Assembly (NCBI GenBank): GCA_964036195.1
Contig: OZ038453.1
Location: forward strand, 17,211,206-17,275,205
Source: Sphaerolaimus hirsutus
Lineage: Eukaryota; Nematoda; Chromadorea; Monhysterida; Sphaerolaimidae
Direction of reading: 5' to 3'
Length of the DNA: 64,000 nt
In this document: piece by piece, positions 34,901 through 60,515 of the stretch
Layout of the letters: each line of letters opens with the position of its first letter
Position numbering within the stretch: the first letter of the stretch is position 1
The notes under the pieces: generated by a model
Told to the model about the DNA's origin: nothing
Seen by the model: the letters and a program-made list of their open reading frames with translations, nothing else
Databases searched by the model: none
Program-made: the position numbers and the translations under genes

Positions 34901-37900
34901 ATGCGGACAGCGACACCGACAGTGCTGTGGAAGCCAAGGTTGCGTGCGTCATTTTCTAGGCTTGTTTGTTAGCAGCCTGCACTTTGTGTGGTGACAAGAC
35001 AAGTTTCAATGACAAAGTGACTTTCTAGTAACGACGCGTGTAACATGTGACAGAATGTTTTTTCAATATTTACAAAATCTTTTTTTCTAATTTTTTTTAT
35101 TGTCACCAAGTTTTCCGTTGCAACTTTCTTATCGCTTTCAACTTAAAACATCACTTGGCACTGTGTCAATGTGCAAAACGATGAATCGTGGTCACAAGAA
35201 TTCACGTCAAAATTCACACGCCCCTCAAACTGCGCAGAGAGTGCGCTTCAGCCCGTCCAGCCAGGCGCAGTGCGACGGCGACATCGCGTCGCGCACGCCC
35301 AGAGGGAAGCGACGCGTGCTGCGACGTTCGCTCAAGTCTGCGATGGATAGAAACTGCAGCCGCAGCGCAGACAGCAAGGCGGCGCCAGGCACGCAGTTCA
35401 ATTTCGCCAAGTTTGCCTCACCGCGCACTATGAGATTGGTCAAGCAGGTGGGTGCATTTCTTTAAATTTTACTCAATTCAGTTAATTTTCACTTTATTTT
35501 GACCCATTTTCACCTATTGGGCTGTCGGGAAAGTTCGTTCCGTCTTCCCTTGGATGGTCGGGGATTGTGAGTTTTGAGTCGGTTTATATAAGCTGGAATT
35601 ACCGCTCAACGTAAAATTCAAAAATAAAAGTTTACCGCGAAATTGATTACATAAAAGTGGATGATAATACATATATCCTACTTTATGTTTCCAGCCGATT
35701 TTACATTGAAATTTCATCGAAAAATCGAAAACCACGGAAACGCTGGATCGTGCACGTTGAGTTTTGAACATTATTGAGAGATAAATCAACACTGCATCGA
35801 CTTTTACGTAATCAATTTTGTGGTAAAAATTTGTGCTTGGATAAATTCCAGCTTATATACGCCGGCTGAATGCCCACTGATCGTCCAGGACGATCCAATG
35901 GGCGACGATCCTGAAACGGCACGAACTTTCCCGACAGACCAATATTTCAGCTATTCTTGACCTCCAAACAAAGATTTCGGAAAAACTGACACAATCTACC
36001 TACCGCAAATCCTCGAATAAGACCCCCCTCGAATAACACCTCCTTGAATAACTCCTCCCCTTGAATAACTCCCTCCCCTTGAATAACTCCCCCATGTTTG
36101 AGAGGTGAGGAAAAAATGACTCCCCCCCTCGAGTTACTCCCCCTTTTGAACAACTCCCCCTTCTGTATGTCAAGGATATAATACAAAAATACATTAGAAT
36201 ATTAGCGTACGGCAGCGACTGCAGATACATGATGTGTATGCGGTGTATACGCATCATTATGTTTTTTGTTGGACAATTAAATACCTTAATTACATGAGTT
36301 GACAGACTGCGCCCATACAATCAATTCAGTCCAATTTTCTGAGGAAAAAATAACTCCACCCTTGAATAAGTCCCCCCTCGAAAACCTCTGACGAAATAAT
36401 AACTCCCCTGGGGTCTTATTCGAGGATTTAGGGTAGTTTTATCAACATTTTCCGTAAACCACACTGCACCATCCACCCATTTACATACACCTAAACTGCC
36501 TTGCTTCATTGCAGGCGAGCAGTCAGGCCAGTGCAGAGTGTCCAGAAAGTGTCAGTGGACCCGCTGCAGATTCTGGCACTGTGCCAACTGAAGTGACCCA
36601 ACCAGCAGCTGCCATGTCAGTGGAAACGAACCAGGTTGTGGATGAAGTGGCCATGGATGAACGTTGTGCGGACACCTCTAATTCAACTGATTCTGCTGTG
36701 GATGAGCCGGTTTCAGTTGGTTTTTGTTATTAATTTAGCTTTTGGTTGGATTGTACCTAGGGTGTCAATTTTCCGTTTTCCGCTTTCCGCAGGCAAATTT
36801 TTGTCCGTTTCCGTTTTCCGGCTGCTAATTTTTTTTTCCGTTTCCGTTTTTCCGGCTCATTTTCCATTTTCCGGCTAAAATTTCAGTTTTTCCGCCTTTT
36901 TTCCGTTTTCCGGCTCAATTGTCTGTTGTTCCAACTTTATTCCATTTTCTGACTCAATTCTCTGTTTTCTGTTTCAGCCAAACTGGTAAACATGCATGCA
37001 GGTTCTCAATTGTGTGAATTGTTTCTATTTCTAGCAAGATTTCTGCAAATTTTTTGATTTCTGGATAAAATTTTTATCGGTTTCCGGCAAAATTTCAACA
37101 AATTTTTTCCGTTTCCGGCATAATTTCAGCAAATTTTTCCGTTTCTGTTTCCGTTTTCCGGCCTTTCATTTTTCCGTTTTCCGGCAGGTGCAAATTTTTT
37201 TCCGTTTCCGTTTTCCGGCAAGTGTAAATTTTTTTCCGTTTCCGTTTCCGTTTTCCGCCAAAAAGTTTTTGTTGACACCCTATAGTACCCGCAGGTTTTC
37301 AAAATACCGTTTATCCTTGAAGAAGACTCCAGGGGCGTTATTATTTCGTCAGAGGTTTTGGGGGGAGTTATTCAAGGGGGGAGTTATTTTTTCCTCAGAA
37401 CTTCCAGGAAAACTTTCACTTTATTCATTGTTTGTATGCATTCCGTCAACACATCTAATGCAGAAAATGACCAGTTCAACAAGAAAAACTGAAATAATTC
37501 ACACACAAACCAGCAAAAAACCATGTAGGTATGCATACTCTGCGTACACAAAATGTATCTGCTGTGTCGTCCCGGCCGTAGGCTAACATTCTTTTGTATT
37601 TTTCGTTTCACACACCAAACCCCATTTGCATTCGATCAATCAGCCCAGACATACCGTATTTCCTCGAAATACCCCCGGGGGGTGATTGTTTCATAGTGGT
37701 CCCGAGAGAGGGGGTTAAACGAGGGGGGGTTATTATTTCTCAAGAAATTTTTTGAAAGCCAAGTACGAAATAGTCGTCTGAAACGTACGCAGACGTCGAA
37801 AAATGCAACAAAAACCGCCATTTATAAGGTTCTGTAGACTAATATTAGTGTGTAGATGGTATGTACACTGTTCTAACGTGACACCGACATTGTTTTAACG

Positions 37901-39462: not shown

Positions 39463-39759
39463 GTGCTGTGTTGTTCTTTTGTATTTAGCTGGAGACATGC
39501 TAATGTTTGCTACTCGATTATCTCGGTTATCGATCGACACAGTTGTGAAAGTTAATTTTTGTAGTTTTTGTCATTGTGAACGTGTACACGTTTTGGAACA
39601 TCGCCCGCTTGCTTATATTGTAGGATTACTTTGGTCATTTGTAAAGTGTTGCGCATGTGTAAACATTCGTGCAAAGTATATTTTTGAATAAGGCTAGAAG
39701 TAGAAAGGTATAGATACGTAGGTGGTAATGGTTCTACTTTAACAGAGCTTGTTGTTAAT

Positions 39760-42700
39760 GGGCCTCCACACGCTAGTTGACATCGCATTTCAGAGTCAAC
39801 TCAGAGTCAACTAGTGTTTCAGTTGACGCAATCACTCACCACTTGACTTTTTTAAAAGAGCATACGCGTTAACCCATATTTTTGGCATTTAGCTCATGTA
39901 TTTCATTGAAAAAGTCAACTGGAAAAATCCATTCTCAGAAACGAGTTGACCCTGCTTTCTACGATGCAGTTTGTGTGATTTAAAGAGTGTTATGTGATAG
40001 ACCATAATTAATCTGATTTTTTGACACCTAATTATCATATATTGTGTGAAGCATAACCAAATGAAAAATTATTTGCATGTTCCATATTCAAAATTTTTTT
40101 ATTGTTTACATGTGTGAATGCTTGTTAATTAGATAGTTGTTTCATGTACTATAAATGTCTGTGAATTTTTCTGTACTAATTCTCATTCGTAATAAATTTT
40201 TTTGAAAGAATAAAAAATCTTTTTCTTTAAACGGAAATTTATTTTTCATTGCGCAACACGGAATCACATCATAATGCCAACATAACCAAATGAAAGGCAA
40301 AATAAACGCGAACACAGCAGTATTTTTTTTGAAAGAATCACATAACACAAAAGAAAGATATGAATTTTTCAATATTTCAAACTTCAATAATTTTAAAAAG
40401 TTTTCCTGGCAAGTTATGACAGCACTGAATGTGAAATTTGATATACTAAAACTATTGAAGAAAGTAACACAAGAAATTTCAAAAAACGGCAGCTTTTTCA
40501 ATTTTTAACACCTAAATATCTAACTCTGAAAAAAATTGATGAGTTGACACTGACAGTTTACGAAAATATGTCAACTGATTCATTTCACCTAGAAATGGAT
40601 CAGTTGACATAACGTTTAAATCTGACTCATTAACTCAGAAATCTTACCAGTATACAGTATTTTTTTGTATAAAAAAACATAATTAATTAACATAAAAAAT
40701 TAAATTAAATAAGGAAAATTTAATTGAAATATAAATAAAAAAGTTATAAAAATAGGAAGAAAAAAATAAAAATAAAAATGAAAAAATTCATAAATAAAAA
40801 GTAATTATAATATGAAATAATAATAAAAATTATAAAATTCAAGTAAAAATATAAAAAAATTAGTAAAAATTAAAATGAAAACAATAAAATTTATAAAAAA
40901 AATAAAAATGATTGAAAAATAAAAAATAGATAAAATACCCATGAAAATAAATATAATAAAACTTTAAGAAAAAAAAAATTTCTAAAATGGACATTAAAAT
41001 ATAAGTAAAAACATTTAAACAAATAAAAACATAAAATTTAAATAAAAATAAAAATAATTTAAAAAAAATAATAATAATATAGCAAAAAATATAAGTGTAA
41101 AAATAAATTTAAGGATGCACATACTGCACACACAAATCAGCACTTGCAGAAATGAACAGAATCACCAAGTAGTGTCCCTTGTGATAGTAATATCTGGTGC
41201 AGCTGCCTCTGCATCAACAAAATCAGAACATTAATATTGAAAAGCATTGTTTACTGAACACATGAAGTGTAGAAAAAAATTTGAAGTTGACAAAATGTCT
41301 ATGTAGCTTATGTCAATATGCGTATGCACTCATAGTATACAAAAAACGCGATGTCAACTGACTTGGAAATTTTGAACAAAAAAAATTCTCACACTTTTTT
41401 GAACTGTTCCTTTGCAAAAAGTTCTTCTATGAAAGATGCGCATTCTTTTTCTCTATGTGTACCTAAAATTTCGTATAAATAGAATGTAAATTGGATAAAT
41501 AAAGTTACTTTTGGAAAGTCGGCGAGCGCTGAGTCAACTGCCGGAAATACGCACTTTTGCATACGTTTTTTGACGTTTTCATACGATTTTGGGTACTTGA
41601 CATCGTATGCACAACACTTGTGTCAACTGAAATGAAAAAAAACGTATACTCGCGTACGCAGCGTACACTTTCAGCTCAGTTGACATTTTCGATCATGATT
41701 TTCACTTTTATTGAAACTTTTGAAACAGCCAAAAAGTCAATTCAATGAACACTGTAAATGAAAATGTCAACTGCAAATGTAAACACAGATTAGTTGACAT
41801 TTACGGTTGCATGTTGTCATTTATGTTGCTTATAGTTATATTTATAGATTGAAAATGTCAACTTATATAAGTTTGAGTGTGTGTGTAAGTGGTTGGCTCC
41901 ACCTCATAATTGAAAAATAGGGCCCACACAGGCTAGTTGACATCGACACCAAATGTAAAGTTCCAAACCAAACTGATCCCCATTCAAAGCTCGCTTTCAG
42001 GAATTGAAAAGCAAGCTTTGGATTGGGACAGGAAACAGTTGACATTTTCTGTCGTTGTCAAGTAGCCTGTGTGGGGCATGGTAGTGAAGTAAACAATATA
42101 TAAGTTGACATTTTATAGACTAATCCATTCTTAACTCTATTGATACTTTCAGGAGAGTGGCAGCAGTGGGCGGTGTATGAAGTAAAATGGCTTGAATGTT
42201 TTCTGGAATTAGTGGTTTTGTTTGGTATTTTGCGATGATTTTTGAGTATTTTTGAATTTTTTGGAAAGATTTGAATGTGCTTGTTTTTATAATAATTTGG
42301 AAACTTTTTGTTTTGTTGTTAATAGTAAATAGATAGCAGATATGAATTCTTTGTTAGACACAAAAGTGCAACTTTTAAAGAAAAACTAAATTTTGAATTT
42401 TTTTACCTTGAATTTTCAAAATAAAAATTTCAAAAAGTTGTGTCAAAAGCTGTAAATGTTTTTTGAAAATATGCAAAAATGCAACAATTAAAGTTTTCAT
42501 GTTTGCTATTTTCAATCTCCAAATTGTTCAAGTTTAAAATGAATCTCCTCTTCTTTTTTTTTCTTACAAATTTTTTGATATGTAAAGATTATCTGGTTCA
42601 AAAAATTTTAAGTTGTCAGTCAACCCAAGTATTCTGTTGTTAAATTTTTATTTTATACACATTGTGTCTGGAAACAACAGTAAATTACATGAAATATAAA

Positions 42701-43212
42701 GCAACATTTAAAAGGCAACAATACATCACTATCACATGAAAAAATACATCACTATCACCACTTTCATCATTAACCTTTCAAGTTATCCTATTTTGGCAAT
42801 TCAAAATAAAAGTACTGCAAATTGTGTATGCGTATGCAAGAAAACATGAAAAAATACATCACTATCACCACATTTCATCATTAACTTTTTCACTTTTACA
42901 CTTTTGGCAATTCAAAAGGCATAAATTGTGTACGCGTACGCAAAAATTTGTATAAGTACGCAAAAAAACATACGCGTACGTTTTTCTGCGTTCGCGTATG
43001 CCAAAAAAACATACGCGTACGCAAAAAAACATACGCGTATGCTTTAGTTGACTCGGCCAGTGACACAAATATCTGTACTGCCCAAATTTACTAGTTGACA
43101 TTATCACTAGTGTGTACGTTGTCAACTAGAGTCAACTGAGAAAAATTTCAGTTGACTCTGAGTTGACATTTTACATGCGAAAAATGCGATGTCAACTAGC
43201 GTGTGGAGGCCC
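39760..43212. mobile_element. 3.45-kb non-coding Harbinger-like element
   Basis: GGGCCTCCACACGCTAGTTG plus ACATCGCATTT at the left are a perfect inverted match to the right end, and AAT stands on both sides (39,757-39,759; 43,213-43,215). The size is close to that of the transposase-bearing 26,602-30,082 element, and both carry GTCAACT and ACGCGTACGC subterminal words, but here the middle (40,660-41,110) is simple AT-rich (AAAAATAAAAAT) sequence with no transposase. A small MITE is nested at 41,918-42,077. Confidence 0.85.
41918..42077. mobile_element. Palindromic MITE nested in the 39,760 element
   Basis: GGGCCCACACAGGCTAGTTG faces GTCAAGTAGCCTGTGTGGGG; the internal GACACCAAATG/GACATTTTCTGTCG arms match the copy at 13,363. 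Confidence 0.75.
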
Positions 43213-43234
43213 AATGGGCGACGTCATATTCGCG

Positions 43235-43450
43235 GTGCACACACTAGTTGATACGTGTTTGTCAACTGGTCTGTGTCAACTCAGATTTCGGCTTCACCTG
43301 TTGCAGAGCGATCTTCCTGCATGTGTCGGTAATATTGATTTTTCGACATTGCCGTTGCATGTGCGTTTGGAGATCGCTCTGCAACACATGAAACGTAAAT
43401 CTGAGTCGACACAGGTTGATACACACCAGTCAACTAGTACGCGGGGTGCC
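43235..43450. mobile_element. Palindromic Harbinger-like MITE
   Basis: CACACACTAGTTGATACGTG at the left faces ACACACCAGTCAACTAGTAC at the right. An inner inverted pair, GTTGCAGAGCGATCT and GAGATCGCTCTGCAAC, forms a long stem. It lies only 22 bp from the end of the 39,760 element. Confidence 0.7.
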
Positions 43451-43779
43451 ATCGTTTTCTTTTGATTACATAATGAAAAAAATCCTGCTGTAACGAGTAA
43501 CAAATATTTCGAACTTATGGCATAATCTTGTTATTATTTGCTATTTTGTCGTGTCTTTTCAAATTTCTTGTTGTTGTTAAGCATTTTGTAATAATTTAAT
43601 GTGGAGTACACGATGTAAATATGTTCTCAGTTTGAAAACATTAGACATAAATTCCATACTACCGAGTAGGGTTTCATTCAGACTAGCTGGAGGTATTGAA
43701 GCGATGGGCGTGGTGTCTGTGTAAATGGAAAATGCCCTCATTGGCTTTGTAAATTGCACAGACACTATGGCCTATGGGC

Positions 43780-44412
43780 CAGGGGTCTCCTAGGGGGGGT
43801 TACCCCCTCCCAAACCACCCAGCTATCTATCTATCCCAGAGGCAGGGGTCTCGAATGGGGGGGTTACCCCCCCCAATCCGCCCAGCTATCTATCTATCCC
43901 GGAGGCCAAATTTTGGGCTACTACCCCCTAAACCCCCCCCCCCAAATCGCTCAGCTATCTACCTATCTTGAGCGATTTTTGATAAACTATACCGTAAATG
44001 CTCTAATAATACGACAGTCGTACTGTTTTTTTCAGCACATTTTTAGGTGTCGTACTATTGGAGATGTCGCATTATTAGAGAGTGTCGCATTATTGTTTTC
44101 GTCGAATCAACAACTTCTCGGCCAGTGAATAGTGGCGGTTGTGAGGCGGCTGGCGCCCTTGCGAACTGCCGAGCGACTCTTGTGAACTGCCGCCAGCCGC
44201 CGCTTTGTCCAAAAGCGCCGAATCCGCGGCTTCCGCAGATTGCCTTATCGTTACGGCGCTTTTTATTTTTATTTCTCAGGTGTCGCACTATTGAAGAGTG
44301 TCGCATTATTGGAGAGTGTCGGATTATTTTCACACAACGTGCCCAAACCTGTCGCACTATTGGAGATGTCGTATTATTGGAGACCTGTCGTATTATTAGA
44401 GCATTTACGGTA
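43780..44412. mobile_element. ATCTATC array followed by TAATACGAC word-array element
   Basis: 43,780-43,985 is ATCTATC-type sequence. From 43,989, TACCGTAAATGCTCTAATAA with ACGAC is inverted at the right end as GTCGTATTATTAGAGCATTT and ACGGTA, flanked by TA. The interior repeats TGTCGCATTATTGGAGA words. Its centre contains a short open frame on the minus strand (listed next). Confidence 0.8.
44098..44272 (-). pseudogene. Short open frame inside the TAATACGAC element
   Basis: The minus strand reads SAVTIRQSAEAADSALLDKA, a Gly/Ser/Gln stretch, then NRHYSLAEKLLIRRKQ and TAA. It is GC-rich and helix-forming, unlike the array around it. Tc1/mariner and pogo elements code for helix-turn-helix transposases that begin with similar basic helices, so this could be a remnant, but the match is too short to assign. 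Confidence 0.2.
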
Positions 44413-44458
44413 CCCCAATTTTCGTTCAAGATCGCTATTTTTCATACCTTTTTTTATA

Positions 44459-44658
44459 NNNNNNNNNNNNNNNNNNNNNNNNNNNNNNNNNNNNNNNNNN
44501 NNNNNNNNNNNNNNNNNNNNNNNNNNNNNNNNNNNNNNNNNNNNNNNNNNNNNNNNNNNNNNNNNNNNNNNNNNNNNNNNNNNNNNNNNNNNNNNNNNNN
44601 NNNNNNNNNNNNNNNNNNNNNNNNNNNNNNNNNNNNNNNNNNNNNNNNNNNNNNNNNN
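44459..44658. other. Assembly gap (200 N)
   Basis: Exactly 200 N, so the size is probably a placeholder. The left side is ATCTATC-type repeat sequence; the right side resumes in the same family at about 44,730. Confidence 0.99.
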
Positions 44659-44889
44659 CATAATTCCAGGGTTGTTAAAATGACTGAGGCCTTCTGTGCA
44701 TGTTTACCCGGTGTGCATGTTGACCCTTATTTTCACTCAAAATCGCTAATTTCCATACCTTTTTATAGATTTTTTACCTTCAAAATCACTAGTTCATGTG
44801 TTTTAATGTCTTTTTTCAGCTATTTTTTGTAGTATATGTGCTTATATACCCATTTTTAGTATTTTTCACCTACTTTTTGCGATTTTTTG

Positions 44890-45532
44890 ACCTTTTTTTC
44901 TTCATCACAAAAAAGCCTATATATTGAACCCCCAAACCCCCTAAATTTTTTCCAGCTATCTATCCTTCCAAAGGAGCGATTAGCTATATATCCAACCCCC
45001 TGGAGGGTCAAAATCTAAAATACCCCCGACATGCACAGCGAGTAAACATGCACAGAGTCACAGGCCTGTTAAAAGTACCGAACTTTTTTCAAAGTATACG
45101 TAAACGTGACGTATTTATTTTTTACTCACTGCCTGAGTACAGAAAACGTACAGTAAATGAGTAAACATGAGTAAGTTACTTTTTCCCACAGAAAACGTAA
45201 AAATGAGTATTTTTAAGAAATTTTGCCCCAATTTTCACTCAAAATCACTAATTTTTGTACTTTTTGATCATTTCAAACTTCAAATTAACTAGTTAGTGTG
45301 TTATGTGCCTAATTTTAACAATTTTTGGCAATTTTTCACTTTTTTCTCCCTTTTTTCACATCTATGCCTTGAAAAAGCCTATCTAAAATACGTTTTCTGT
45401 ACTCGAGTACTTTCAAAAAGTATACGTAAAAGCGAGTACAGGTACTTTTTTCAAAGTATACGTAAACGTATTTACTCTGTACTCGAGTATACGTACTTTT
45501 TGAGTAAACGTAAATAAGTTTTAACAACTATG
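44890..45532. repeat. ATCTATC element end and TACGTAAA word-array element
   Basis: 44,890-45,030 ends in GGAGGGTCAAAATCTAAAAT and ACCCCC, the ATCTATC-family end. From about 45,065 CTGTTAAAAGTACCG begins arrays of ACGTAAACGTGACG, GAGTAAACATGAGTAA and ACTCGAGTAC words that stop at TTTTAACAACTATGC (45,535). The 47,105-47,497 copy has matching ends (AGTTGTTGAAAGTAC and TTTTAACAACT). Confidence 0.65.
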
Positions 45533-47713
45533 CATAATTTAAGAGATAATATAGAGGCATGAAAACAGAAAACGCGCTACCTGCGGCCAGTTGCGAGCCC
45601 TGTAAAGTAAATATAAGTACAGTGAAAGTGTCAAATGTCATGTAAAATGGCAATCAAAATAAAAATAATTATTACAGAACTTTGCATGACATTTTAAATG
45701 ACATTTGACACTTTACTTTACACTTTACAGGGCTCCGGACTGCCACCTGAATCGATAAAATCATCACACTTTAAAAACAAAAAAGAACGAACCATGGTCG
45801 TCCCAGACTGAATCTGCAAGCTGCCATCATTATCAACAAACTGAAATGACTTTTCTAATGGCGGCGTGGCAGCGACCACGCTGTAATAATGTGAGGGTCT
45901 CGGATAAGTTTCATTATTGGCTGTGACATCTTGTCTCTTTTTTCTACGCTTTCTGGGCCCCTTTCCATTGACATTTTCACCCCTGGTTTTGTAAGTATTG
46001 ACCAGTGTGTTCCCCTGGGGACAGTCCCAGACCCTGTAAAATGTCAAATGTCATGCAAAGTGTCAAAAGTCATGTAAAATTCCCGGTAAAATGGCAAACG
46101 TACATTTGCCATTTTACAGGCATTTTACGTGACTTTTGACACTTTGCATGACATTTGACATTTTACAGAGTCTGGGACTGGCACCTGACTCATCGTTTGG
46201 CACAGTTCAAAGTTTTCCTCTTTTCTGACTTCAAAGCCATTCATCTGCAATTTTTTTAATGACTATAAAGAATACCGTATATCCTCAAATAAGACACCAG
46301 TGGAGTTATTATTTCATCAGAAAGTTTTGGAGGTGGAGTTATTCAAGGGGGAGTTATATTCCCCTCACCTGTTCAACAGCTGAGAGTACTTCAAGTGGGG
46401 TATTATTCAAGGGGGTATTATTCAAGGGCGATCTTATTCAAGGATATACGGTAAATATAAATATCTAGCAGTTTCCACCGACTGACCACCAACAAAAAAA
46501 CGAAAGCCAAAACGCAAACTCACCAAATCAGTCAACTCAATCGACTGGGCGATCGCACTTTTTCTGAATGGGTTCAAATTGCACACGGTCACCGCGGGCA
46601 GTCGGTCGCTCAGCGGCGATTGAAGCTGAGTAAAAACTGAAGTTTGTAAATTATTTATGATTTAAAGGTGACGTCATATTTTTAAATCCATCATTTTTTG
46701 CATTCATACTATTTTTAACTGCTCTGTTTCAAGTCTATTTTAATGTCCATGAGAAAATTCGAGTATATCCGAGCCCAAAACTGCCCCATAAGTTTTAATG
46801 TCCTGTAACAAATTGCAGATGCGCGTTGACCGTGAAGGTTCTGTGACAAATGTGTGCACGAGGGACAGAAAAGCGCAAGGTAAAAATGGCGCTAGACAAC
46901 AGAACGGATAATGGTGCGTGGCGCCAGCGCCATTCCATCATGAGTATGCACTACATTTGATAGCTGCATTCATTGTCACTTGAGAGATCATAATAGTTTT
47001 ACACGCAAGTAAATTTCTTTTCAAATGCGTCACTTTTTAAGTGATGCATTTGCACTGCAATCACAGTGCATCAAAGCACCCAACTTTTATTTCCGATCGC
47101 CAGAGTTGTTGAAAGTACTGATATTTTTCCAAGTAAACATAAACGTAAAGTAAAATTCTTTTACTTTTACGCTGCGTAAATGGTGAGTAAACGTAAATAC
47201 CAGTATTTTTACTCAGGGAAAACGTAAAAGTCTCTTTTTGATTTTGTACATAGGACGATGTAAAAATGAGTAAAAGTGAAAGCGAGGTCTTCGCTTTCAC
47301 AACTTCTATCATTTCGGATGCCATTTTTGCAGCCGTTCTAATTCGTTTGAGTAGTTTTTGCTTTTTTTGTATCCCAAAACTTTTTTCTCAATTACGTTTT
47401 CTGTACTCACGTACTTTCAAAGAGTACGCGAGTGAGTACCAGTATTTACGCAGTACTCGAGTATACATATTTATCGCGTAAATGTAAATGTTTTAACAAC
47501 TATGCCGATCACACAAATCGGGCTCACTGAAAAATCGTCACGACAATGTAAATTGTTCCAAAAAACAGACCATTATGATGGTAGTGGTGTCTCTGCTGAA
47601 AAATCTGTCCAAAATATTATGCAGCTGAACAACGAAAATCATGGTCACCACAACCATGATTATTGCGGCCGCGCTGCGTTCCACCCAGTTAGCCCTCCGC
47701 ATGAAACGCACGC
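45528..47713 (-). CDS. DEG/ENaC-family ion channel, 5' part
   Basis: DEG/ENaC proteins are trimeric Na+ channels with two membrane spans and a large Cys-rich ectodomain. Exons on the minus strand: 47571-47713, 46524-46625, 46185-46244, 45747-46014, 45528-45580, with consistent phases. The first gives GVRFMRRANWVERSAAAIIM with a hydrophobic span and FFSRDTTTIIM, the TM1 end. The second gives LPAVTVCNLNPFRKSAIAQS, the family hallmark after TM1. The rest is ectodomain up to FLFLKCDDFIDSGS, at the place of the CxFxGxxC motif. A stop follows at 45,528; the Cys-rich region, pore and TM2 are not found, so the gene is truncated or its later exons are lost in repeats and the gap. Two introns are introner elements. 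Confidence 0.78.
45581..45746 (-). mobile_element. Introner element acting as a DEG/ENaC intron (phase 1)
   Basis: On the minus strand the exon ends GATTCAG and the intron starts GTGGCAGTCCGGAGCCCTGT and ends ACTGGCCGCAG before GTAGCGCG. Its arms are inverted copies (AGCCCTGTAAAGT at both ends) and CAG (CTG on the plus strand) stands on each side at 45,581-45,583 and 45,747-45,749. The element is therefore the whole intron apart from the duplicated CAG. Confidence 0.82.
46015..46184 (-). mobile_element. Introner element acting as a DEG/ENaC intron (phase 0)
   Basis: The exon ends ATGAGTCAG; the intron runs GTGCCAGTCCCAGACTCTGT to GTCTGGGACTGTCCCCAG, and the next exon opens GGGAACACACTGG. The two arms (ACTCTGTAAAATGTCAAATG and inverse) are nearly perfect and meet at about 46,092. 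CAG is duplicated on both sides (plus-strand CTG at 46,015-46,017 and 46,185-46,187). Removing the element and one CAG restores an uninterrupted reading frame. Confidence 0.88.
46273..46452. mobile_element. TACCGTATATCCTCAAATAAGAC element in a channel intron
   Basis: TACCGTATATCCTCAAATAA and TTATTCAAGGATATACGGTA are inverted ends flanked by TA. GGGTATTATTCAAGGGGGTA words fill the interior. It lies 28 bp upstream (minus sense) of the 46,244 exon. Confidence 0.8.
46626..47570 (-). other. DEG/ENaC intron holding a TACGTAAA element
   Basis: The intron between the TM1 and NLNPF exons carries a GGCGCC fragment (about 46,880-46,940) and a TACGTAAA word-array element (47,105-47,497) bounded by AGTTGTTGAAAGTACTG and TTTTAACAACT. 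No further exon is seen. Confidence 0.6.
47571..47713 (-). CDS. DEG/ENaC exon with TM1
   Basis: The exon follows CCAAAACACAG and ends ATAATG|GTCTGT. It encodes a hydrophobic span SAAAIIMVVVTMIFVVQL with the preceding RRANW and the following RFFSRDTTTII typical of the family. An upstream open stretch on the same strand (about 47,911-47,961; LNPTLWDISAELFNFQP) stops at CCC|GTTGCAGTCCC, the edge of another introner copy, but its phase does not match this exon, so the N-terminal exon is unresolved. Confidence 0.72.
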
Positions 47714-47910
47714 CTGTGTTTTGGAAGTTTGAACGAGTGACAATTTATTTCAGACCCTGCAAAATACCCTGTAAAATGTCAAATATCATGCAAAGTGTGA
47801 AATGTCATGTAAAATTCCCTGGAAAATGGCAAACGGTTTGCCATTTTGCAGGGTATTTTACATGACTTATCACACTTTGCATGAGATTTGACAGGGTTTG
47901 GGACTGCAAC
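47714..47910 (-). mobile_element. Introner-family copy next to the TM1 exon
   Basis: On the minus strand it begins GTTGCAGTCCCAAACCCTGT and ends, diverged, with GCAGGGTCTGAAATAAATTG before the TM1 exon acceptor. The central arms (TGTCAAATCTCATGC and inverse) are clear. The CAG duplication is not preserved, and the upstream exon phase does not fit, so intron status is likely but unproven. Confidence 0.55.
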
Positions 47911-48002
47911 GGGTTGAAAATTGAAAAGCTCAGCGGAAATATCCCAAAGCGTGGGGTTCAATTCAAGGGGGTATAGTCAAAATTTTGATGGTGTGTCGGT
48001 GC

Positions 48003-48365
48003 CCAAGTAAACCTTTACAACCTGGAATGTTACCTGGACTCGATATTTTTCGGGTCGTAAATACGAGCACTAGTCAACTAGCGGTTGTATTTACGACCTG
48101 AAAACTCTATCGAGTCCGGGCTACATTCCGGGTTGTGAAGGTGATCGCTAGTGAACTAGCATTCGTGTTCACAACCCGGAATCGATAGTTTTTTCAGGTC
48201 ATTAATACAAGCGCTAGTCAACTAGTCTTTCGCTTGCACCTGAACTGTGCCCAAGTAAACATCCGCCCGGTGCCCAAGTAAACATACGCCCAGTGCCCAA
48301 GTACAGGCACTTTACTTGGGCACTGGGCGTACTTGGGCACCGGGTATTTAAACTTGGGCACCGGT
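48003..48365. repeat. Compound palindromes (GGGTCGTAAATAC and GGTGCCCAAGTAAAC)
   Basis: 48,003-48,240 holds inverted words: GGGTCGTAAATACGAGC against GGTTGTATTTACGACCTG around ACTAGTCAACTAGC, and TTCCGGGTTGTGAA against TTCACAACCCGGAA around CGCTAGTGAACTAGC. 48,244-48,365 is a run of GTGCCCAAGTAAACATACGC followed by its inverse. Both look like decayed word-array elements. Confidence 0.65.
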
Positions 48366-48380
48366 CTTTCGCCAAAATCT

Positions 48381-48549
48381 TCACCTTATATTTTCAGCAT
48401 ACACAGACACCAGAGTAGTAAACCCCAACCCCTGGCACTGTGCCATAACCACCCCAAGCCACCGACCAGGCACAGTGAGAAACGAGCAAACATCATGCTC
48501 AATCATAGCCTGTTTTGGCGTTGGCGCCTGCCTCCCAGAATTGAGCGGA
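48381..48549 (-). CDS. Terminal exon resembling a trypsin-like C-terminus
   Basis: It follows CTGCTGCAG and runs [15 protein letters not shown] to [20 protein letters not shown] and SVYAENIR, then TGA. In chymotrypsin-fold proteases the equivalent segment is PLxC...GRWxLxGVVSWGxxC...PGVYTxVxxYxxWI, and the start with PL would follow the GDSGG serine. The WG and the final Trp are replaced, so the enzyme may be divergent or inactive. Confidence 0.42.
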
Positions 48550-51500
48550 CTGCAGCAGGAAAAGCAAAATTTAGACATTTTCAACCCGCGTCAGAGTTTA
48601 GGGCGTTTGTTTCTTTGGTCGCATTTTTTTCATCCGGATAAGATATTCTAGAAGCCAGTTGCAAAATCAATTTCAGCTGGTATTGGTCAAATTACGACAA
48701 AAGGCAATTTGTCATGCATAGGTATTTTATGTATACGATTACAGGACAATAATAAATGTTATTTTGTCGTCATATTTACTCGTAAAGTAGATATTTAGCA
48801 CGTCTATGTATTTACATATAATGTAAATACGGCCATGGTGCCACAATCTTCTGAAAGCGAAAAAGCCTCAAAACGAAATGTCCCTAGCGACGGGCGACAA
48901 ATCACTAGGAAACAAAGTAAAATAACCATATGCATTTGGGCATGCCTCCATGACTTGCTGCATTCCATGACATGTAAAACATATAATATTCATGGAAACA
49001 TGAACTACAAATATGAAAATGTACGGAATCAGATGGCACAATTTTGTGGCTACTGAATTTGAAGGAGTTTGCTTGCGAGTTGGTCGAGAGACAGGCAAGG
49101 TGAAAATGATGTGTAAAAGCAAAAGAACGAGTGTAGGCCTAAAACTTTCCTTAATATGAAGATAAATATTCACCGTTTCACACCATTCACGCTGCGGAGG
49201 ACAACAGTACTAATGCAAGAAAATGCCCATCAGCTTTTCACTAAAATTCTATATTATTAACTCATTATAAATCCACAAACTAGGCCTCAAAGTTATTTTA
49301 GTATATTGTTGTGCCAGGAGACAAACACATATGACATAGGCCTACTAGTCATCTGAAGTCTTGTAGAATGCAGACCCGATAGTCATGTATTTCTACCCAC
49401 TAGTCATGTAGATCAGCAAGTCATGTATTTCTACCCACTAGTCATGTATACAAACCGGTCATGTATTTCTACACACTAGTCATGTACACCAGCCAGTCAT
49501 GTATTTCTACCCACTAATGATGTAGACAACCCAGTCATGTAGACCAGCCAGTTATGTGTTCCTACTGTAGTAGTTGAGTGTTCACTCAACTACTACACTA
49601 ACCACTAGGCATGTAGACTGTATGTATTTCTACCCACTAGTCATGTAGATCAGCCAGTCATGTATTTCTAGCTGCTAGTCATGTAGAGCAGCTAAATAGT
49701 CATGTATTTAGGGTTCAAACGGGACCCCAATCCCGAGAAATTTTGAGATTTTGTGGTCCCGATTCCGAAACCTCAATCCCGATCCCGATCCCAAAATTTG
49801 AAAAAGACAATCCCCATCCTGATCCTGATCCCGAGATTTTGAAAACCCCAATCCCGATCCCGAAAAAATGCCCCAATCCCCATCCCGGAAAAATTCACAG
49901 ACACAAGAAGTGCCCAAAATGGCAGTTTTAAAGGACCATTTTGTATGCAGTTTGCAAAAATTTTGCACGCAAGCGCGCATTTCCCCACCTCCCTCCCTAT
50001 CTCATTTGCGTGGGCATGGACACCACTACAAATGGACTCAATACAGTACCCATTACCATAGTTTAAGGTGAATACACATGCATATATGGTAGACAGTGGT
50101 GTGCATGTAAATGCCAAGCAGCCCATTGCGCAGTTCCTAAATGAATCTATTGTGTTGTTTTGTATGCAAATTTAATCCAATGTTTCTGGCATCCATTGTT
50201 TTTGGTGTTTTGGGTCATTTTGTGAAATATCTGAAGAAAAAAAACCCTGAAAACCAATTTTTTAGGCCTTAATCCTGATCCCGAAAAAACGCCAACCCCG
50301 ATGCCGATCCCGAGAGGCCAATCCCAAAATATCAAAAAGCCAATCCCGAAATGTCAATCCCGTTTGACCCCTACATGTATTTCTACAGACTAGCCATATA
50401 GACCAACCAGTCATGTATTTCTACCCACTAGTCATCTATGCCCCTAATTAGGAGGCGAAGAGTACTAGGTAGTGTGGGGATTATCATAGCACACAAGATT
50501 AGCAGCAGCTGGTGCACACCAGTAGAGCAATAGCATGGGCCGCAGTGCCATGCATTGTAGTGTACAAATCATGTAACTAGGGTTGGGGAACCGAACCGAA
50601 CCGAACCGAGAACCGAGCACAATTTTGGAACTGAGAACCGAGAACCGGAACCGAAAAAAATACCCGAACCGGAACCGAGAACCGGCACTTAGACCCGGAA
50701 CTGAACTAAAGAACCGAAAGAACCGAAAATTTATACAATAATCGGCGGCCGCCCCCTCCCCTTCCCGGGTGAGAGTAGGAAGATGCATGGAAATGTAACT
50801 TCCGGCATCAATTTTTAGGGTGATTTGTAAAAATTTTGCGCGCAAGCGCCCAATTCTTGCTTCACGACCGGTGATTTCATAAAACAAACAGACACCATGC
50901 TCAAAAATCCTGGATATGTACCTGGCCCCCGAAGCAAGGGGTCTACATGTGCACTGGGTTTACATGCGCACCAAGTTTTGGCTGTCTGGGGCACCTACGC
51001 CAACGCCAATGGTGCCATGGCGTGGTGCCTATGAATGGCGCGAGCGCACAGGGGCAAAATTTCAGGGGGGGGTTGTTTTATGTTGTTTTTCCTTTGTTCA
51101 GCTTATTATTTTCTTGTTTACGATTTTTTCATTACCCGATACCCGACTTTTTCATTACCTGGAACCGAAATTTAGGACAATTTGGACCCGAAAGAACCGA
51201 ACCGGAACCGAACTTAAGAACCGAACCGAGAACCGGAACCGAAAATTTTGAGGAACCGAGAACCGAACCGAAATTTTTTAGAACCGAGAACCGGAACCGA
51301 AAATTTTGAAATTCCCAACCCTACATGTAACCCGCTAACACGCCAAGTAGTGGCATAGATGACTAGTTGGTATAGATGAGAAGCGGGTAGAAATACAACA
51401 CTGGCGAGCCTACATGACTAGTGAATTTAGATAACTACAGTGAGAGGGTTGTAGTCGGAAAATAATAACATTAAATATTGTTGTGTTGTGTTCAGACTGC

Positions 51501-54500
51501 CTGAATTGATACATATCAGTTTTGACTTGAATATGTATTGTTAACACTTTCTGAATAGGCATTTATTTATCTCCGGTACGCCTTGAGCAAAATTTTGCAC
51601 TGAAAAAACATACTTTATCCAGTAAATATTTTTCAAGTGGTATTAAAAAATAAAGCACATAAGAAAGTGAAAAATAATTAACACCCGCTTTCCAACGTTT
51701 TCCTAAAGAAAAATGAGATTAGGAATGTTAGACAGCGATATCACAATTAACGAGTGAGAATATGACTAAAACCGTCCTACTCAAACACAAATAATCAACC
51801 ACAAATCAAAACTCACACCCAAAAAGCTCAAAAACAACATCCAATTTCATCTGACCCATCCGCACAAGTTCTATGGCCGTCGCACCGTTCCCATCGAGCC
51901 AAGCAGACCGGCCTGGCGTTCGGGTAAATAGCGCACAGGTGCGAACCTAGCGCGCACGCTGCAAATGTGTTTGTGTGAGGGTGAAAAACGCGGTAATAAA
52001 TGTGATAAAATAATGTTATCAGGTATACTATTTATAACGACTCAGTCAGCTGGGGGCAGTCCCGCACCATGTTAAGTGCAAAGTGATGCGTCGATTGTCA
52101 TGCAATATGTCAATTGAAATAAAAAGAAAAGATTTTATTGCTAAACTTTTGACATTTTGCACGACATTGGACAAATTTGTAGGACATTTTCCATGCCATT
52201 TGACACACTGTGCCTGCGCACACTAGTTTTCACACGGAATTTGGAAAACTCACAAATAAGCGTAAAACGCATTTCAGTTTTCTACAATGAGGTGGCCGTC
52301 AACTACAGTTGACGGAACTTACAAATGACACATTGTGGAAAACTCAAGCACGGCCAAAGCTCATTTATGGGTTTATAAATTTCGTGTGAAAACTAGTGCG
52401 CGTAGGGCCATTGTGCCAACACACAAACTTCGGTGAAAACTGAAATCGGATTAATCAACACGTTTGAAAAATTTAATTTAATTTAATTTGATATAATTTA
52501 AATGTGAATTGAAGTTTTTGAAAGTTCGAATTTGAAAATTTAAACACATATAGCATACAATAAGAGTAGGCCGTATGTCGCCATTTCGCCATTTCAGTTT
52601 TCACAGAAGTCACGGTGAAAACTAGTGTGTGTAGGGCCATTACTACAGGGTGCGGGACTGTCACCTGCAGTAGGCTTCAATTAGAGTATGTCTCAAATTC
52701 AGTTTCAACGTTAAGGCGCACGACACCAGAGTTACATGTACCTTACGTTTGAATTAATTCTATTTCTCAGGACATTCGACACAAAGTGTGGGAGTGCGAT
52801 ATAAAAACACCCCCCTGGAACTAGGGTTCAAACGGGATCCCGATCCCGGATCCCGTGAAACTCCGGGATTTACCAGTCCCGATCCCGATCCCGAAACCCC
52901 AATCCCGATCCCGATCCCGAAATCTCAAAAATACCAATCCCGATCCCGATCCCGAAAGTTTTCAAATCCCGATCCCGATCCCGAGAAACTCCCAAGTCCG
53001 GGATCCCGATCCCGGAAAAATTAGTGGGAATTATAAAAAGTGAAATAATGACGTTTTTGCATGCAAAAAAGTGGATGCAAACCCCCAGCGTCAATTTTAT
53101 GCCACTTTTCTGGCATCCAACAGTGTTTTGAGACCTTTATGAACAACTGTGAATGCCAGAAAAATGGCCAAAATCTCTATCCCTAGAACCCAATCCCGAT
53201 CCCGGAAAAATGCCTATCCCAATCCCGATCCCGATCCCGTGACCCCAATCCCGGCCAATCCCGATCCCGAAATCTCAAAAAACCAATCCCGATCCCGATC
53301 CCGAAACCCCAATCCCGATCCCGATCCCGATCCCGAAATCTCAATAAAGTGAATCCCGATCCCGATCCCGAAAAGTCGATCCCGTTTGAACCCTACCTGG
53401 AACCCCCTTGGCTAACATTCGCAATTCTGCTCATCATCCCCTTCGGGACAGTGGGGCTCGCCGTCGCACAAAAACTCGGCCGGCACGCATACCCTGACAT
53501 ATGGCACGATCATTATCGAGCGTCCCAACACTTTTGGAACGCTCTGTGTGGACGCGTTGAACAGGCACTCGTACTCGGAGGGGGAGCACTGGCGGTCTGG
53601 ATGAATTAATTGGGAGGAGTGAAATGGTGGAGAGTTGAGGGAGGGACATGATAGCGGAGCTCCTGTGCAAATGGTTGTTCATAGCGCTAACCTAAATTTC
53701 TCGTGGAATTACAATTAGCGTTCCAAAAATCTCGGGAGATTTTTATTTTCAAAAATACAAAAAAAATTATATTTATTTATATTTTATGCTGTTTTTTTCC
53801 GGAGGGATCTAATAATATTATCTTATGAGACGAAAATATTAAAATCTCCCATTTATTTTTCTCTCTGTGTTTTTAACGAGATTAAATTATATTATATTTT
53901 CTGAGATTATATTTATTTTATCATTTTTTTTCTCTGAAAAAACACCTATTTTTCTCAAAAACACCCATCACAATCAGGACTTTCAAAACCGATATCCAAA
54001 CAAATGCATCCAAATAACACACATGAAAATTCAAAACAACACAAATCACGTTTAGGAAAAGCCATAAATCCCAAGGTCACCAACCACAAAAACTCTCATC
54101 TTCACCATCTGGACAAGAGTGCAGCCCATCACAAATCGCTTCACCGCGGACACATCTGTAGCTAGTTGAGGAGACACCTGTGAACGCTTTTTTATGTAAT
54201 GACTGAACAGAAGGATCGTATGATTGAATGTGTCGTTTGGGCTAGGGATGGCCAGTGCTTTTTTCAACCACTTTTTCTTAAAAAATCTATTCGTGTTTCT
54301 AACGGTCACACCACTTTTAAAAAATGGGCAATTTTTATACTAATTACGCAGTAGGAATTTTGCAACTCTTTTGCGCGCAAGCATGCAATTTCACATGCAA
54401 ATTACCATTGGCGGTTACTTCCATCGGTTTTGTGGCATTTTTAGTGCCATTGCTTCTATTCCTGCATCCTATCAAATATCTTTTTTCAACAGCTTTTTTT

Positions 54501-54966
54501 AAAAACGGTGTCGTCAAAAAAACGTTTTTCCATTCGTTAAACTATGGCGATAAAATTTATCGATTAATAAAAATGTGCTCGATAATCTACTCAATATACA
54601 CACTGACCGACCCATTCCCATCAAAAGCACATAAAACCCAACACCGAACACACCCTCACACTGCAAACTGGTTTTGCAATAATGACCCTTTCCAGAGCCT
54701 TGTCTTGATGTGGATGTGTCTTGATCAAAATTATCGATATGACACTCAATTTCATCCCTGTGCGTCAAGGGACAATCGATAGCACCATCACACTGCCTTG
54801 AAGATGGCACTTTTTTCGATGTCTGCGGAGGTGAAAAAATGGATAAAAGATTGAATTTGCGTGGAGAAATTATTAGAGTGCAAACACGTACGGTATTTTT
54901 TGGATCGCAGTCGAACATTTGAAGCGTGCAGTTCTCGTTTTGAGGAGCCGCTCCGATTTGTGAAAA
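48381..54966 (-). CDS. LDL-receptor class A repeat protein, possibly a trypsin-like serine protease
   Basis: LDLa modules are about 40-residue Cys-rich, Ca2+-binding ectodomain units. Minus-strand exons: 54892-54966, 54654-54822, 54085-54177, 53417-53596, 51836-51946; phases 0,1,1,1,1 agree. They give four modules with the CDG...DGxDE signature: [67 protein letters not shown]. Phase-1 junctions are usual for LDLa exons. The exon 48,381-48,549 ends like a trypsin domain ([25 protein letters not shown]). LDLa arrays joined to a serine protease exist in enteropeptidase- and nudel-like proteins, but I did not find exons with the His and Asp catalytic residues, so the join is inference. The 5' end is not found. 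Confidence 0.62.
48600..49364. other. Stretch with no confident feature
   Basis: Open frames of about 70-100 codons occur on both strands at 48,835-49,173 but have no family motif and no splice partners. One could hide a protease exon; I see no His-box (TAAHC) or Asp-box. Confidence 0.35.
49365..49708. repeat. AGTCATGTATTTCTACCCACT tandem array
   Basis: About eight degenerate units with AGTCATGTATTTCTACCCAC and TAGTCATGTAGACCAGCC alternate. The array resumes at 50,374-50,440 and 51,325-51,430, having been split by two insertions. Similar AGTCATCTA words lie at 39,020-39,120, behind RIF1. Confidence 0.75.
49709..50373. mobile_element. CGGGAT word-array element in the CATGTA array
   Basis: TAGGGTTCAAACGGGACCCC and CAATCCCGTTTGACCCCTA bound an array of ATCCCGATCCC words. 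The flanking 8-bp duplication CATGTATT is perfect. A stretch with TTTTGCACGCAAGCGCGCA shows that part of a CAGGGACG-type MITE lies within. Confidence 0.85.
50578..51323. mobile_element. CCGAAC word-array element in the CATGTA array
   Basis: TAGGGTTGGGGAACCGAACC at the left and AAATTCCCAACCCTA at the right bound arrays of GAACCGAGAACCGGAACCGA. The 8-bp duplication CATGTAAC is perfect. The array is split (about 50,735-51,110) by GGCGCC- and GCGCGCAAGCGC-containing MITE sequence. Confidence 0.85.
52050..52667. mobile_element. Introner-family copy split by two tandem MITEs
   Basis: Its outer parts GGGGGCAGTCCCGCACCATG (52,053) and TACAGGGTGCGGGACTGTCA with C (ending 52,664) are inverted, with plus-strand CTG (CAG on minus) on both sides. 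Between are two GGCCC...ACTAGTTTTCAC MITEs (52,211-52,409 and 52,414-52,638). On the minus strand it would read CAG|GTGACAG...CCCCCAG, so it keeps a possible intron form, but lies within the larger intron between the LDLa exons. Confidence 0.75.
52822..53395. mobile_element. CGGGAT word-array element in an LDLa-gene intron
   Basis: TAGGGTTCAAACGGGATCCC and GATCCCGTTTGAACCCTA bound the array; both flanks carry the perfect 8-bp duplication CCTGGAAC. The core GCCACTTTTCTGGCATCCAA is the reverse complement of that in the 4,412 copy. It ends about 22 bp from the LDLa exon at 53,417. Confidence 0.92.
53600..54084. other. AT-rich LDLa-gene intron
   Basis: The stretch between two LDLa exons is AT-rich with ATTATATTTATTTTA-like runs. 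No gene or complete repeat is recognised. Confidence 0.5.
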
Positions 54967-54999
54967 CTGTAAAAATACAACAAAGGAATTCGGTTACAT

Positions 55000-55552
55000 T
55001 CGGAAAAGAATATCCGTCTTTCCACTGCGAATTATTGGCGGAAAAATAACAAGCAAACAGTCTCAATGGGGGGGTAACCACCCAGCTACAGTGCGCGCAG
55101 TTATTTTGCTTTGCATGCGGTGGTCAGCGTAAGCTCCGCCCACTTTCGTGTAAATGCCCACTAGCGCTAACCCCAAAAATCACGAACGTTCGGTCAGGCT
55201 CACCTTTTTTTGTGTGTGAGCTCAATAACGACAGTTAAATTTCTACGATTTTTTACATTTGACAGAGAACGCACATAATTTTAGCCCTCTGTGTGTACGC
55301 TCGACCCACAATTCCCATTTTCAAGCGCGTGGTGGGCCTCAAAAGGTTCGTAAAAATCACAAGTTTGTGTAGGGAAAACGGGGCGCGCGGCCGGGCCAAA
55401 ATGCGCGTGCAGTTTTAAGGCTGGCGCGAGTGCGCGGAGTAACAGTGGCACTTGGGTCGGTGCCAATACGCACAGGAATTTCTGCGCACACTGTATCTAT
55501 CCATCCTGGAGGTAAATTTTTTGGCTTCTATCCCGTAACCCCCCCCCCCCCA
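55000..55552. other. Possible 5' region of the LDLa gene; no feature proven
   Basis: The stretch 55,280-55,460 is GC-rich with an open minus-strand frame that lacks an ATG. An ATCTATCC fragment with a C run lies at about 55,493-55,551. This could hold the promoter and signal-peptide exon of the minus-strand LDLa gene, but nothing confirms it. Confidence 0.25.
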
Positions 55553-55834: not shown

Positions 55835-57755
55835 TTCCGCAACGAGTCGGCGTCATTGCCGATAAAGACCTTCGACACGGCCCACTTCGTGCAACCAGGT
55901 GGCACTCCCAAACCCTCCACAGTGTGTAGTGTAAATTGGAAAGGAAAATTCAAAGTAAACTGTCATTTGTCAAAAATTTTCAGATATTGTTCAAATTTTT
56001 TTTTCAATGTTTTAATTTTATGGAGAGTTTACTTTGCATTACACTTGCAATTTACACCTTACCTTACAATTCAGAGGATTTGGGATTGCCACTAGGCGTT
56101 TTGTGGATAAAATTGTGCACCGAATGTGACAAAAATGGATATGGATGCGGTACGATGGAACAACTCGAAATGATGGAACACTTTTCGTTCTATGCGCCCA
56201 TCCCGGAAGGATATGAGGTTATTTACATTTGTAATTTTTTATGAATTTATTTTTTTTTATAACATTATATACCGAAGTATGTTGCTTTTTGGCGTTAAAT
56301 ATTTTAGTAATATGTAATATTATAAAATAAATTATAAATATGTTCACAATTTTTTTTTCTGTCTGAATTCCGGACTTGGGGAAACAATACCGAAATTGAG
56401 AGCAGATACTTGAGAGTATTTTGGGATAGGGATATGGGATTAAATGTTTTCTTGATCTGGTTTTTTTATTTTTAGAGTGCGGTGTCCCATTTTGTTTTTC
56501 GGGAGGTATCGTGTCTGTCAACTGCCGGAATTTCTCTGAATCACGGATACTAGTATAGATCTATGTTTAAGATATGTTACTTTACATTACGATAATCTCA
56601 TTCATTTATAGGTGACAATTTACGCGGATAGATCGACGGAATTCGTGTCGAAGGACGTCGTCAAGACAGTCGTAGACACCGCGTACGGGCTTTGGAACAC
56701 GGGCAAATTGAAGAAATTAACGTTTTTCGGCTGTGGAACTTTCGAAGACTTGAAGGCTTTCTGCGAGGTATGTTTAACGTTCAAATGTGCAAAACCAAGA
56801 TTACACCATTGTACATCTTCCATGTGAAAATTTTTACGTAAAATGTTTGGCGTAAAAAATGTATGGTTGTTTGGCATGTTTGGGGGGTTGGGAAGTTTGG
56901 CGAGAAAAATTTGACTTGAAAAGTTTAACGTGGAAAGTTTGGCGTGAAAAATCTGACGTGGAAAGTTTGGCGTGGAAAGTTTGGCGTGAAATATTTGACT
57001 TGAAAATGTGACGTGGAAAGTTTGGCGTGAAAAATTAGAATTGAAAGCCAAACTATTCACGTCGGATATTTTACATAATCGGTTTGCGCCATCATTTTAC
57101 GCTGATATGTATTTTCACGGTATGAATTTACATTTATATTTCATAATCTTAATTCGAGGGAGAATTTTACATAATCGGTTTGCGCCATCATTTTACGCTG
57201 ATATGTATTTTCACAATATGAATTTACATTTACAATTTATCATCTTAACTCGAGGGAGGTAGTTCATTTTTCGTCACTTTTTCTAGGTAGTAGTTGTTCA
57301 AGGGTGGGGTACAAATATGTCGAATGTTCCCCCCCCCTAAAATGTTTAGGAAAATGTAACTTCACGGGCACTTATTCGAGTATTTACTGTATACATGCCA
57401 TGTATATATTTATTTACTTTTTTAGTTCAACGTTTACAATTTACAGCCGCTGGACATTGATAACAAGCACTTATATCGCAACGAATTGGATCGGATGCGC
57501 GGGGAGCACTTCATCGGCAAGGTGGATTGTCAAAAGTTGTGCGAAATCGAGAACATCGATCAATCTTTTTGTTCACACTGCATGGACGATGCATTGCCGC
57601 TGTTCCCGTCGTTGCGCCAAAGAGGCCGCCACATTAGGTTATTGGATGAATATCATGAATATGGTATTCACAGTAATGGTAAAGGGAAGCAGGAAGGGCA
57701 CGTGGAAATTGATTATGATGATAGTGGAAAGCGTTCGTTTAAGGCAATTTTGTGA
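55835..57755 (+). CDS. Unknown protein, four 3' exons, 5' end in the gap
   Basis: Exons 55835-55898, 56096-56217, 56612-56767 and 57447-57755 join with agreeing phases (1,0,0) and end in TGA, giving about 212 residues. The protein is hydrophilic with scattered Cys/His: KLCTECDKNGYGC, FFGCGTFEDLKAFCE, VDCQKLC and FCSHCMDD, which may suggest metal binding or disulfides. The tail is Asp/Gly-rich (HVEIDYDDSGKRSFKAIL). I recognise no family. Intron 1 is exactly one introner element. The low-complexity TGAT run directly after the stop marks the end of the unit. The start is missing because of the gap. Confidence 0.68.
55899..56095 (+). mobile_element. Introner element acting as intron 1 of the unknown gene
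   Basis: The exon ends GTGCAACCAG, the intron begins GTGGCACTCCCAAACCCTC and ends TTGGGATTGCCACTAG, then GCGTTTTG continues the frame (split Gly codon). GTGGCA and TGCCAC are exact inverted ends; the flanking triplets are CAG (55,896-55,898) and TAG (56,093-56,095). The interior arms (GTGTAAATTG and CAATTTACAC) are palindromic like those of the channel introns. Confidence 0.88.
56822..57262. repeat. GACGTGGAAAGTTTGGCG tandem and a 106-bp duplication in an intron
   Basis: At 56,822-57,060 short units such as TTTGGCGTGAAAAATCTGAC and GACGTGGAAAGTTTGGCG alternate. From 57,069 a unit beginning TTTTACATAATCGGTTTGCG is repeated at 57,175 (period 106 bp) with few changes. The GACGTGGAAAG words recur inverted at 61,680-61,935. 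Confidence 0.75.
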
Positions 57756-60339: not shown

Positions 60340-60515
60340 CGAGGTGGCAATCCCAAGCCCAGTAAAGTGCCAAATGTAAAGTCAAATGCAAATATAACTG
60401 TATGATAACTTTACTAATAAAATCATATTTTTTCGTTTTTATTACAATACTTTGCATTCGACTATACATTTAACAGTTTACTTTACACATTACAGGTCTT
60501 GGGACTGCCCCCGGG
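60340..60515. repeat. Introner-family copy without adjoining exons
   Basis: GTGGCAATCCCAAGCCCAGT at the left and GGTCTTGGGACTGCCCC at the right are inverted, and AAATGTAAAGTCAAATGC arms lie inside. The flanks are GAG and CGG, not CAG; no AG follows, so this copy does not form an obvious intron. Confidence 0.65.

Follow-up and report, generated by a model that had tools for sequence, protein, structure and literature searches.

A family of palindromic DNA transposons in Sphaerolaimus hirsutus very probably has become an introner, judging from the genome sequence, and two of its members lie in a predicted gene within the 64,000-nucleotide stretch analyzed here (the window). The family is best described as non-autonomous, CWG-targeting and NuwaI-type PHIS/Harbinger-like. 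Each copy is a near-perfect hairpin of ~170 bp with unlike ends, starting GTGCCAGTCCC and finishing GGGACTGCCCC, and in the proposed mechanism the transposase would duplicate a 3-bp CWG target. Insertion with the GT end first at a CAG on the sense strand would yield ...CAG^GTGCC...CCCC CAG^... (^ marks a splice border or protein join), the donor coming from the element and the AG from the duplicated target, and excision would restore the former coding sequence exactly. RNA would be spliced at the element borders, a PHIS transposase would move the elements, and the hairpin may help to bring the intron ends together. Copy number, element ends, target duplication, exactness within conserved exons, sense orientation and a surplus of AG among 3′ ends are direct observations. 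A sequence-only reading of the window had proposed introners with one splice site from the element and one from the target duplication; genome-wide this is well supported by sequence, but the second of its two introns is unproven.

A search of the 348-Mb genome for the element ends, the check put forward with that reading, gave 1003 exact occurrences of the 24-base donor end against none for a reversed control, and the hairpin element is present in roughly a thousand copies or more. Copies are ~170 bp long and carry terminal inverted repeats whose outermost bases differ, so that the two ends are unlike (GTGCCAGTCCCAGACC and GGTCTGGGACTGCCCC). From contig C1, the first 70 of 100 places listed among the 1003 were sampled; the far end (≤2 mismatches) was found at 62, of which 60 are distinct, and one of these 60 has a donor-type far end, in a sample chosen by the donor end alone. 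Similarity was compared at 40 distinct places, two of which (L002 and L003) duplicate the window region and were left out. Many copies are similar and their similarity extends to both predicted splice borders, as is typical of introners. The family had also been called active; the closeness of the copies, many of them 90–97% identical, may speak for this.

Flanks were tabulated for 97 copies, made up of an initial 78 (duplicates L008 and L082 left out) and L102–L121 (one further duplicate left out). The 3-bp flanks are identical in 65 of the 97, whereas 2000 shuffles gave 35.8 on average and never more than 50. CWG flanks the element at 86 of 97 5′ ends and 78 of 97 3′ ends, and GT comes first in 95. 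This agreement, together with the presence of CGG/CGG (two) and CAT/CAT (one) pairs, therefore indicates genuine 3-bp target duplication. The target had first been read as CAG, but it is CWG: insertions at CTG, and a few at CGG, are placed with equal exactness. Inverted repeats accompanied by short direct repeats at the borders, within the 3–5 nt range, are the marks of hairpin-type introners, and the CWG 3-bp duplication with terminal inverted repeats is that of NuwaI-type elements. Matches to the PHIS transposase domain (PF13359) number at least 163 in the genome, compared with one of 14 control genomes. Most of the listed matches contain about four in-frame TGA codons and are ~190 bases longer than the domain requires, a sign that the PF13359 genes may share an intron or insert.

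In the window, both palindromes are present on the minus strand where they had been reported, with CAG on both sides of each, and intron 1 is a good case that fits the introner explanation. Predicted exon A (MNGFEVRKEENFELCQTMSQ; 46185..46244, minus strand) is in phase 0 at both ends (TTGCAG^ATG ... AGTCAG^GTGCC) and retains one CAG target copy (46185..46187, minus strand) 5′ of element 1. This element is a palindromic introner-type MITE of 167 bp (46018..46184, minus strand) inserted GT end first, with arms of 74 nt that are 89% complementary. It is followed by the second CAG copy (46015..46017, minus strand), which provides the terminal AG of predicted intron 1 (46015-46184, minus strand, 170 bp, CAG^GTGCCAGTCCCA...GACTGTCCCCAG^). 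Exon B (GNTLVNTYK...KCDDFIDS; 45747..46014, minus strand) is one open frame and joins exon A in phase 0 (...ELCQTMSQ^GNTLVNTYK...). The RNA fold of intron 1 has a predicted energy of −122.6 kcal/mol against a shuffle mean of −40.8 (sd 3.8), with none of 200 shuffles as good, and the window holds 16 end motifs (≤3 mismatches) where 2.5 are expected, a number reached in none of 100 shuffles. These two results and the genome-wide donor-end count, each set against shuffles or a control, show the palindromes to be more than a chance occurrence. The empty site of intron 1 would read ATGAGTCAG^GGGAACACA and holds no donor; the site of element 1 would therefore formerly have been exonic, if both open stretches belong together. 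No homolog of exon B was found, and a protein search with the window gene returned 19 candidates, none at E≤10.

The region also occurs as duplicates at 17.05 and 17.31 Mb of contig C4, and both elements are present in each, with no empty site. Window positions 44659-48954 (4.3 kb, directly after a run of N) are 100% identical to C4 17045205-17049500, 166 kb away, and part of the same stretch is repeated at 96% on the other side, at C4 about 17313034-17315130. The repeated 4.3-kb stretch is either a recent duplication or an assembly artefact.

Intron 2 is a weaker case than intron 1, because its empty site is donor-like and the frame that follows stops after 17 residues. Element 2 (45584..45746, minus strand) is a more diverged palindromic relative with its GTGGCAGTCCGG end first, and with the second CAG target copy behind it (45581..45583, minus strand) it makes up predicted intron 2 (45581-45746, minus strand, 166 bp, CAG^GTGGCAGTCCGG...AACTGGCCGCAG^). 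The reading frame had been said to continue perfectly across both introns. This holds for intron 1, in phase 0, but past intron 2 the frame runs for 17 residues (GSAFSVFMPLYYLLNYA, split codon included) and then meets a stop, so that the supposed next exon (45528..45580, minus strand) may itself be intron sequence; no homolog supporting the 17 residues was found. Is element 2, then, a new intron, or did it enter an old donor site? Without the element the sequence would read GATTCAG^GTAGCG, and insertion at an old intron border explains intron 2 at least as well as a new intron does. Element 2 would in that event have entered the 5′ splice site (CAG^GTAGCG) of an existing intron and lengthened it, making no new one, and we give this slightly better than an even chance; the early stop and the lack of homolog support for an exon beyond the element favor it, whereas the phase-1 frame does continue for 17 residues and the element's own ends would splice too.

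The gene had been identified as a member of the DEG/ENaC group, a label that is weak and should be treated as tentative. One upstream exon (46524..46661, minus strand, ending TTG^GTGAGT) carries a weak DEG/ENaC motif, PAVTVCNLNPF, but its match to Pfam ASC (E=1.1e-4, 21.8 bits) falls below the 23.6-bit cut-off and its match to SCNN1A is non-significant (E=0.77). Pfam scans of the three minus-strand frames found no further DEG/ENaC exon in 36000-45599, and in 46100-55699 returned an LDL-receptor class A match alone. Such scans of long frames are insensitive, since the known weak ASC match was lost in the 46100-55699 scan too.

Other palindromes are scattered through the window. Two related elements on the plus strand have both ends, one at 60341..60514 (GAG^GTGGCAATCCC ... 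GGGACTGCCCC^CGG) and a more diverged one at 55896..56095 (CAG^GTGGCACTCCC ...), and further palindromic relatives at 47766-47906, 52050-52206 and 58781-58909 are partial or have ends that are not clear. The intron before exon A contains a different short inverted-repeat element (46273-46453, TACCGTATATCC... ends). A palindrome at 13360-13528 has arms of 67 nt, 90% complementary, and is unrelated in sequence except for a short GGTGCCAATCCC stretch. Runs of exactly 200 N at 44459-44658 and 55635-55834 may be assembly gaps or sequence that was withheld.

The exactness of insertion is best seen in conserved genes elsewhere in the genome. When the element and one target copy are removed, Pfam and PDB tests give ungapped homology across the join: Na,K-ATPase alpha (SQQ^GMT), cyclin-Y (TL^VYIERLL), ATRX (AANR^VIIFD), BCKDH-E1alpha (RG^WWDDS) and SLC23 (NALL^GGG) are all joined without a gap, and an Srx-like GPCR shows ungapped homology on both sides of its join. 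Such homology shows only that the join neither loses nor gains residues. Retention of the element would bring in a stop in all 11 coding cases examined. In OSCP1, a stretch of 109 residues holds a CAG/CAG element, an ordinary GT-AG intron of 441 bp (borders set by eye, then checked) and a CTG/CTG element, and the joined protein aligns ungapped with profile positions 1-89. This locus (L063, C1 about 3591983-3593283) has a further copy on the opposite strand just upstream, and its ordinary intron holds further palindromic element sequence.

Twenty sense readings from 19 copies (L076 twice) were run against Pfam one by one. In seven the match across the join was convincing (L015, L063, L064, L086, L088, L090, and L113, whose match is gapped, 84 residues being spread over 103 positions). 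For L104 and L040 the match was confined to one side, for L049 it was weak and lay at the border, and the remaining sense readings of the 20 gave nothing convincing. PDB matches were obtained for three of the first four sense readings (L099, L089, L110) and later for both L088 and L090. Several protein names were first recognized by eye, and Pfam or PDB tests followed for those relied on as evidence. L005, which looked like PTPMT1 by eye, had no PDB match and a Pfam match at chance level only.

These elements could instead be ordinary MITEs that reside in older introns or between genes, with exon continuity arising by chance or through insertion at existing intron borders. In favor of this, 51 of 97 copies have no coding signal on either strand in a codon model, palindromic element sequence lies inside the ordinary OSCP1 intron, and element 2 of the window may be a border insertion. 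However, in several conserved genes the join is flanked by ungapped homology on both sides, and the strand bias described below would not be expected; this explanation is very unlikely for the family as a whole.

That bias shows in the codon model: 23 of 24 calls place the coding sequence on the GT-first strand, L041 being the exception. The 12 copies used to train the model had been picked by eye on the GT-first strand, so agreement was also counted outside the training set, where 15 of 16 calls concur. Ten of 76 antisense readings, picked by codon score and look and leaving out most antisense readings of sense-coding copies, were searched and gave one weak one-sided match to GDT1 (L096, E=0.0038, 18 bits, cut-off 27).

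The 3′ ends of the elements are biased as well. Copies with exact ends are flanked by CAG/CAG in 132 cases, CTG/CTG in 61, CTG/CAG in 31 and CAG/CTG in nine, and both CAG/CAG over CTG/CTG (p=3.5e-7) and CTG/CAG over CAG/CTG (p=6.8e-4) are significant excesses. Free change of both target copies predicts mixed classes of equal size, and change of the intronic copy alone predicts a larger CAG/CTG class; the 31:9 ratio runs opposite to the latter and points to a shift of the intronic end toward AG. Cyclin-Y and an AMP-binding gene both retain CTG as the exon copy, with CAG as the intronic one. Insertion preference could account for 132:61, but not for 31:9. The 97-copy table contains 10 CTG/CAG copies, and eight of them are among the 51 without coding signal. 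Acceptor selection does not readily explain these eight unless they lie in exons missed by the codon model; they may be such missed exons, or the 31:9 excess may have another cause.

From orientation and the 3′ AG excess taken together, splicing of the elements from RNA appears to be the best reading. Exact removal could also happen at the DNA level, as with the internal eliminated sequences of ciliates, which are excised precisely from DNA. Programmed excision from somatic DNA would act whatever the middle base of the target, and the CTG/CTG and CGG/CGG copies are placed in conserved exons as exactly as the CAG/CAG ones. Yet such excision should be blind both to the transcribed strand and to a 3′ AG, and it is set aside as highly improbable because coding copies are GT-first in 23 of 24 calls and AG is favored 31:9.

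What, then, are the copies flanked by CTG or CGG on both sides? They make up seven of the 23 sense coding-like copies (six CTG/CTG, one CGG/CGG), and several lie within conserved domains with the frame intact and in the same orientation as the others. For seven CTG/CTG or CGG/CGG copies, a GT-AG alternative to the element borders was sought up to 45 bases from the ends, and no exact one exists; in BCKDH-E1alpha that range holds no in-frame GT-AG option at all, and the options in other copies amount to in-frame insertions or deletions. The choice between GT-TG or GT-GG introns and broken alleles is near even. On the first interpretation, to which we assign just short of an even chance, the 3′ end of an introner would be fixed by the hairpin and the target duplication rather than by AG. 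CTG and CGG insertions would then be removed exactly as GT-TG and GT-GG introns, any CWG of an exon in the sense orientation would permit insertion, and the CTG/CAG copies would be such introns evolving a normal AG.

On the second, only the CAG copies would be introns, and exonic CTG/CTG and CGG/CGG copies would be disruptive insertions, that is, broken or heterozygous alleles awaiting removal. This is a real possibility, though one that we hold at somewhat below even: an exact GT-AG choice is absent, with none in frame within 45 bases in BCKDH-E1alpha, and CTG/CTG is scarcer than CAG/CAG (61 vs 132). However, seven of 23 is a large share of the sense coding-like copies, the conserved frames around them are otherwise intact, and in OSCP1 a CTG/CTG copy sits beside a CAG copy. 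Nor do CTG/CTG and CGG/CGG copies look younger: by identity to the nearest copy, a rough measure, seven of eight CTG/CGG copies fall at 72–95% (one has no match) and 12 CAG coding copies at 67–97%.

The origin of new introns is an old question for which few live animal cases exist, and the present family offers numerous insertions whose target can be read. The base in the middle of CWG provides a natural experiment, in that insertion at CAG would create a canonical intron at once and insertion at CTG would not, and the CTG/CAG copies look like a repair step. If the introner reading is true, intron gain is tied to a property of a transposon group, namely a target that already resembles CAG^G at an exon end; splicing of the CTG copies, if real, would make them a set of animal introns with no need for a 3′ AG. 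Among animals, the larvacean Fritillaria is reported to have non-canonical introns derived from MITEs, with other border dinucleotides.

Introners with target site duplications and terminal inverted repeats have been described as multi-copy and DNA-transposon-like, with one splice site carried by the element and the other derived from the target duplication, and only two groups of animals were found to carry them (Gozashti et al., 2022, PMC9860276). The S. hirsutus elements resemble those considered there in being multi-copy with both kinds of repeat, in drawing one predicted splice site from each source and in restoring the coding sequence. They differ from the introners described in that paper in the CWG target, with the element holding the donor and the target copy the AG, and also in that the whole element is one hairpin, the host is an animal and exact copies exist without a 3′ AG. 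The NuwaI group of PHIS/Harbinger is marked by a 3-bp CWG duplication and inverted ends and is found mainly in animals (PMC4482050). The present family shares the duplication and inverted ends, and PHIS transposase domains, the putative mobilizer, are found in the genome. NuwaI elements are not treated as introns in the relevant parts of that account, whereas this family is introner-like by sequence. Among the matches listed in open-licence literature, none joining NuwaI or CWG with introners was found, and introner with Harbinger led to a fungal-genome paper.

Introners of the dinoflagellate Amoebophrya have hairpin inverted repeats, direct repeats of 3-5 nt over their borders and non-canonical borders (PMC7789003). 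Hairpin structure and short direct repeats recur in S. hirsutus, and exact placement would imply non-canonical borders as well. The Amoebophrya borders, as reported there, are very varied and proven by RNA-seq, whereas in the present family GT is near constant and the 3′ end alone varies, by sequence. Human U2 introns can have TG at the 3′ splice site (PMC2374985), described there as an alternative site, whereas here TG would be the sole exact end of a transposon-made intron. Set against the known introners, what appears to be new in S. hirsutus is the combination of a CWG target, a full hairpin, an animal host and exact copies that lack a 3′ AG.
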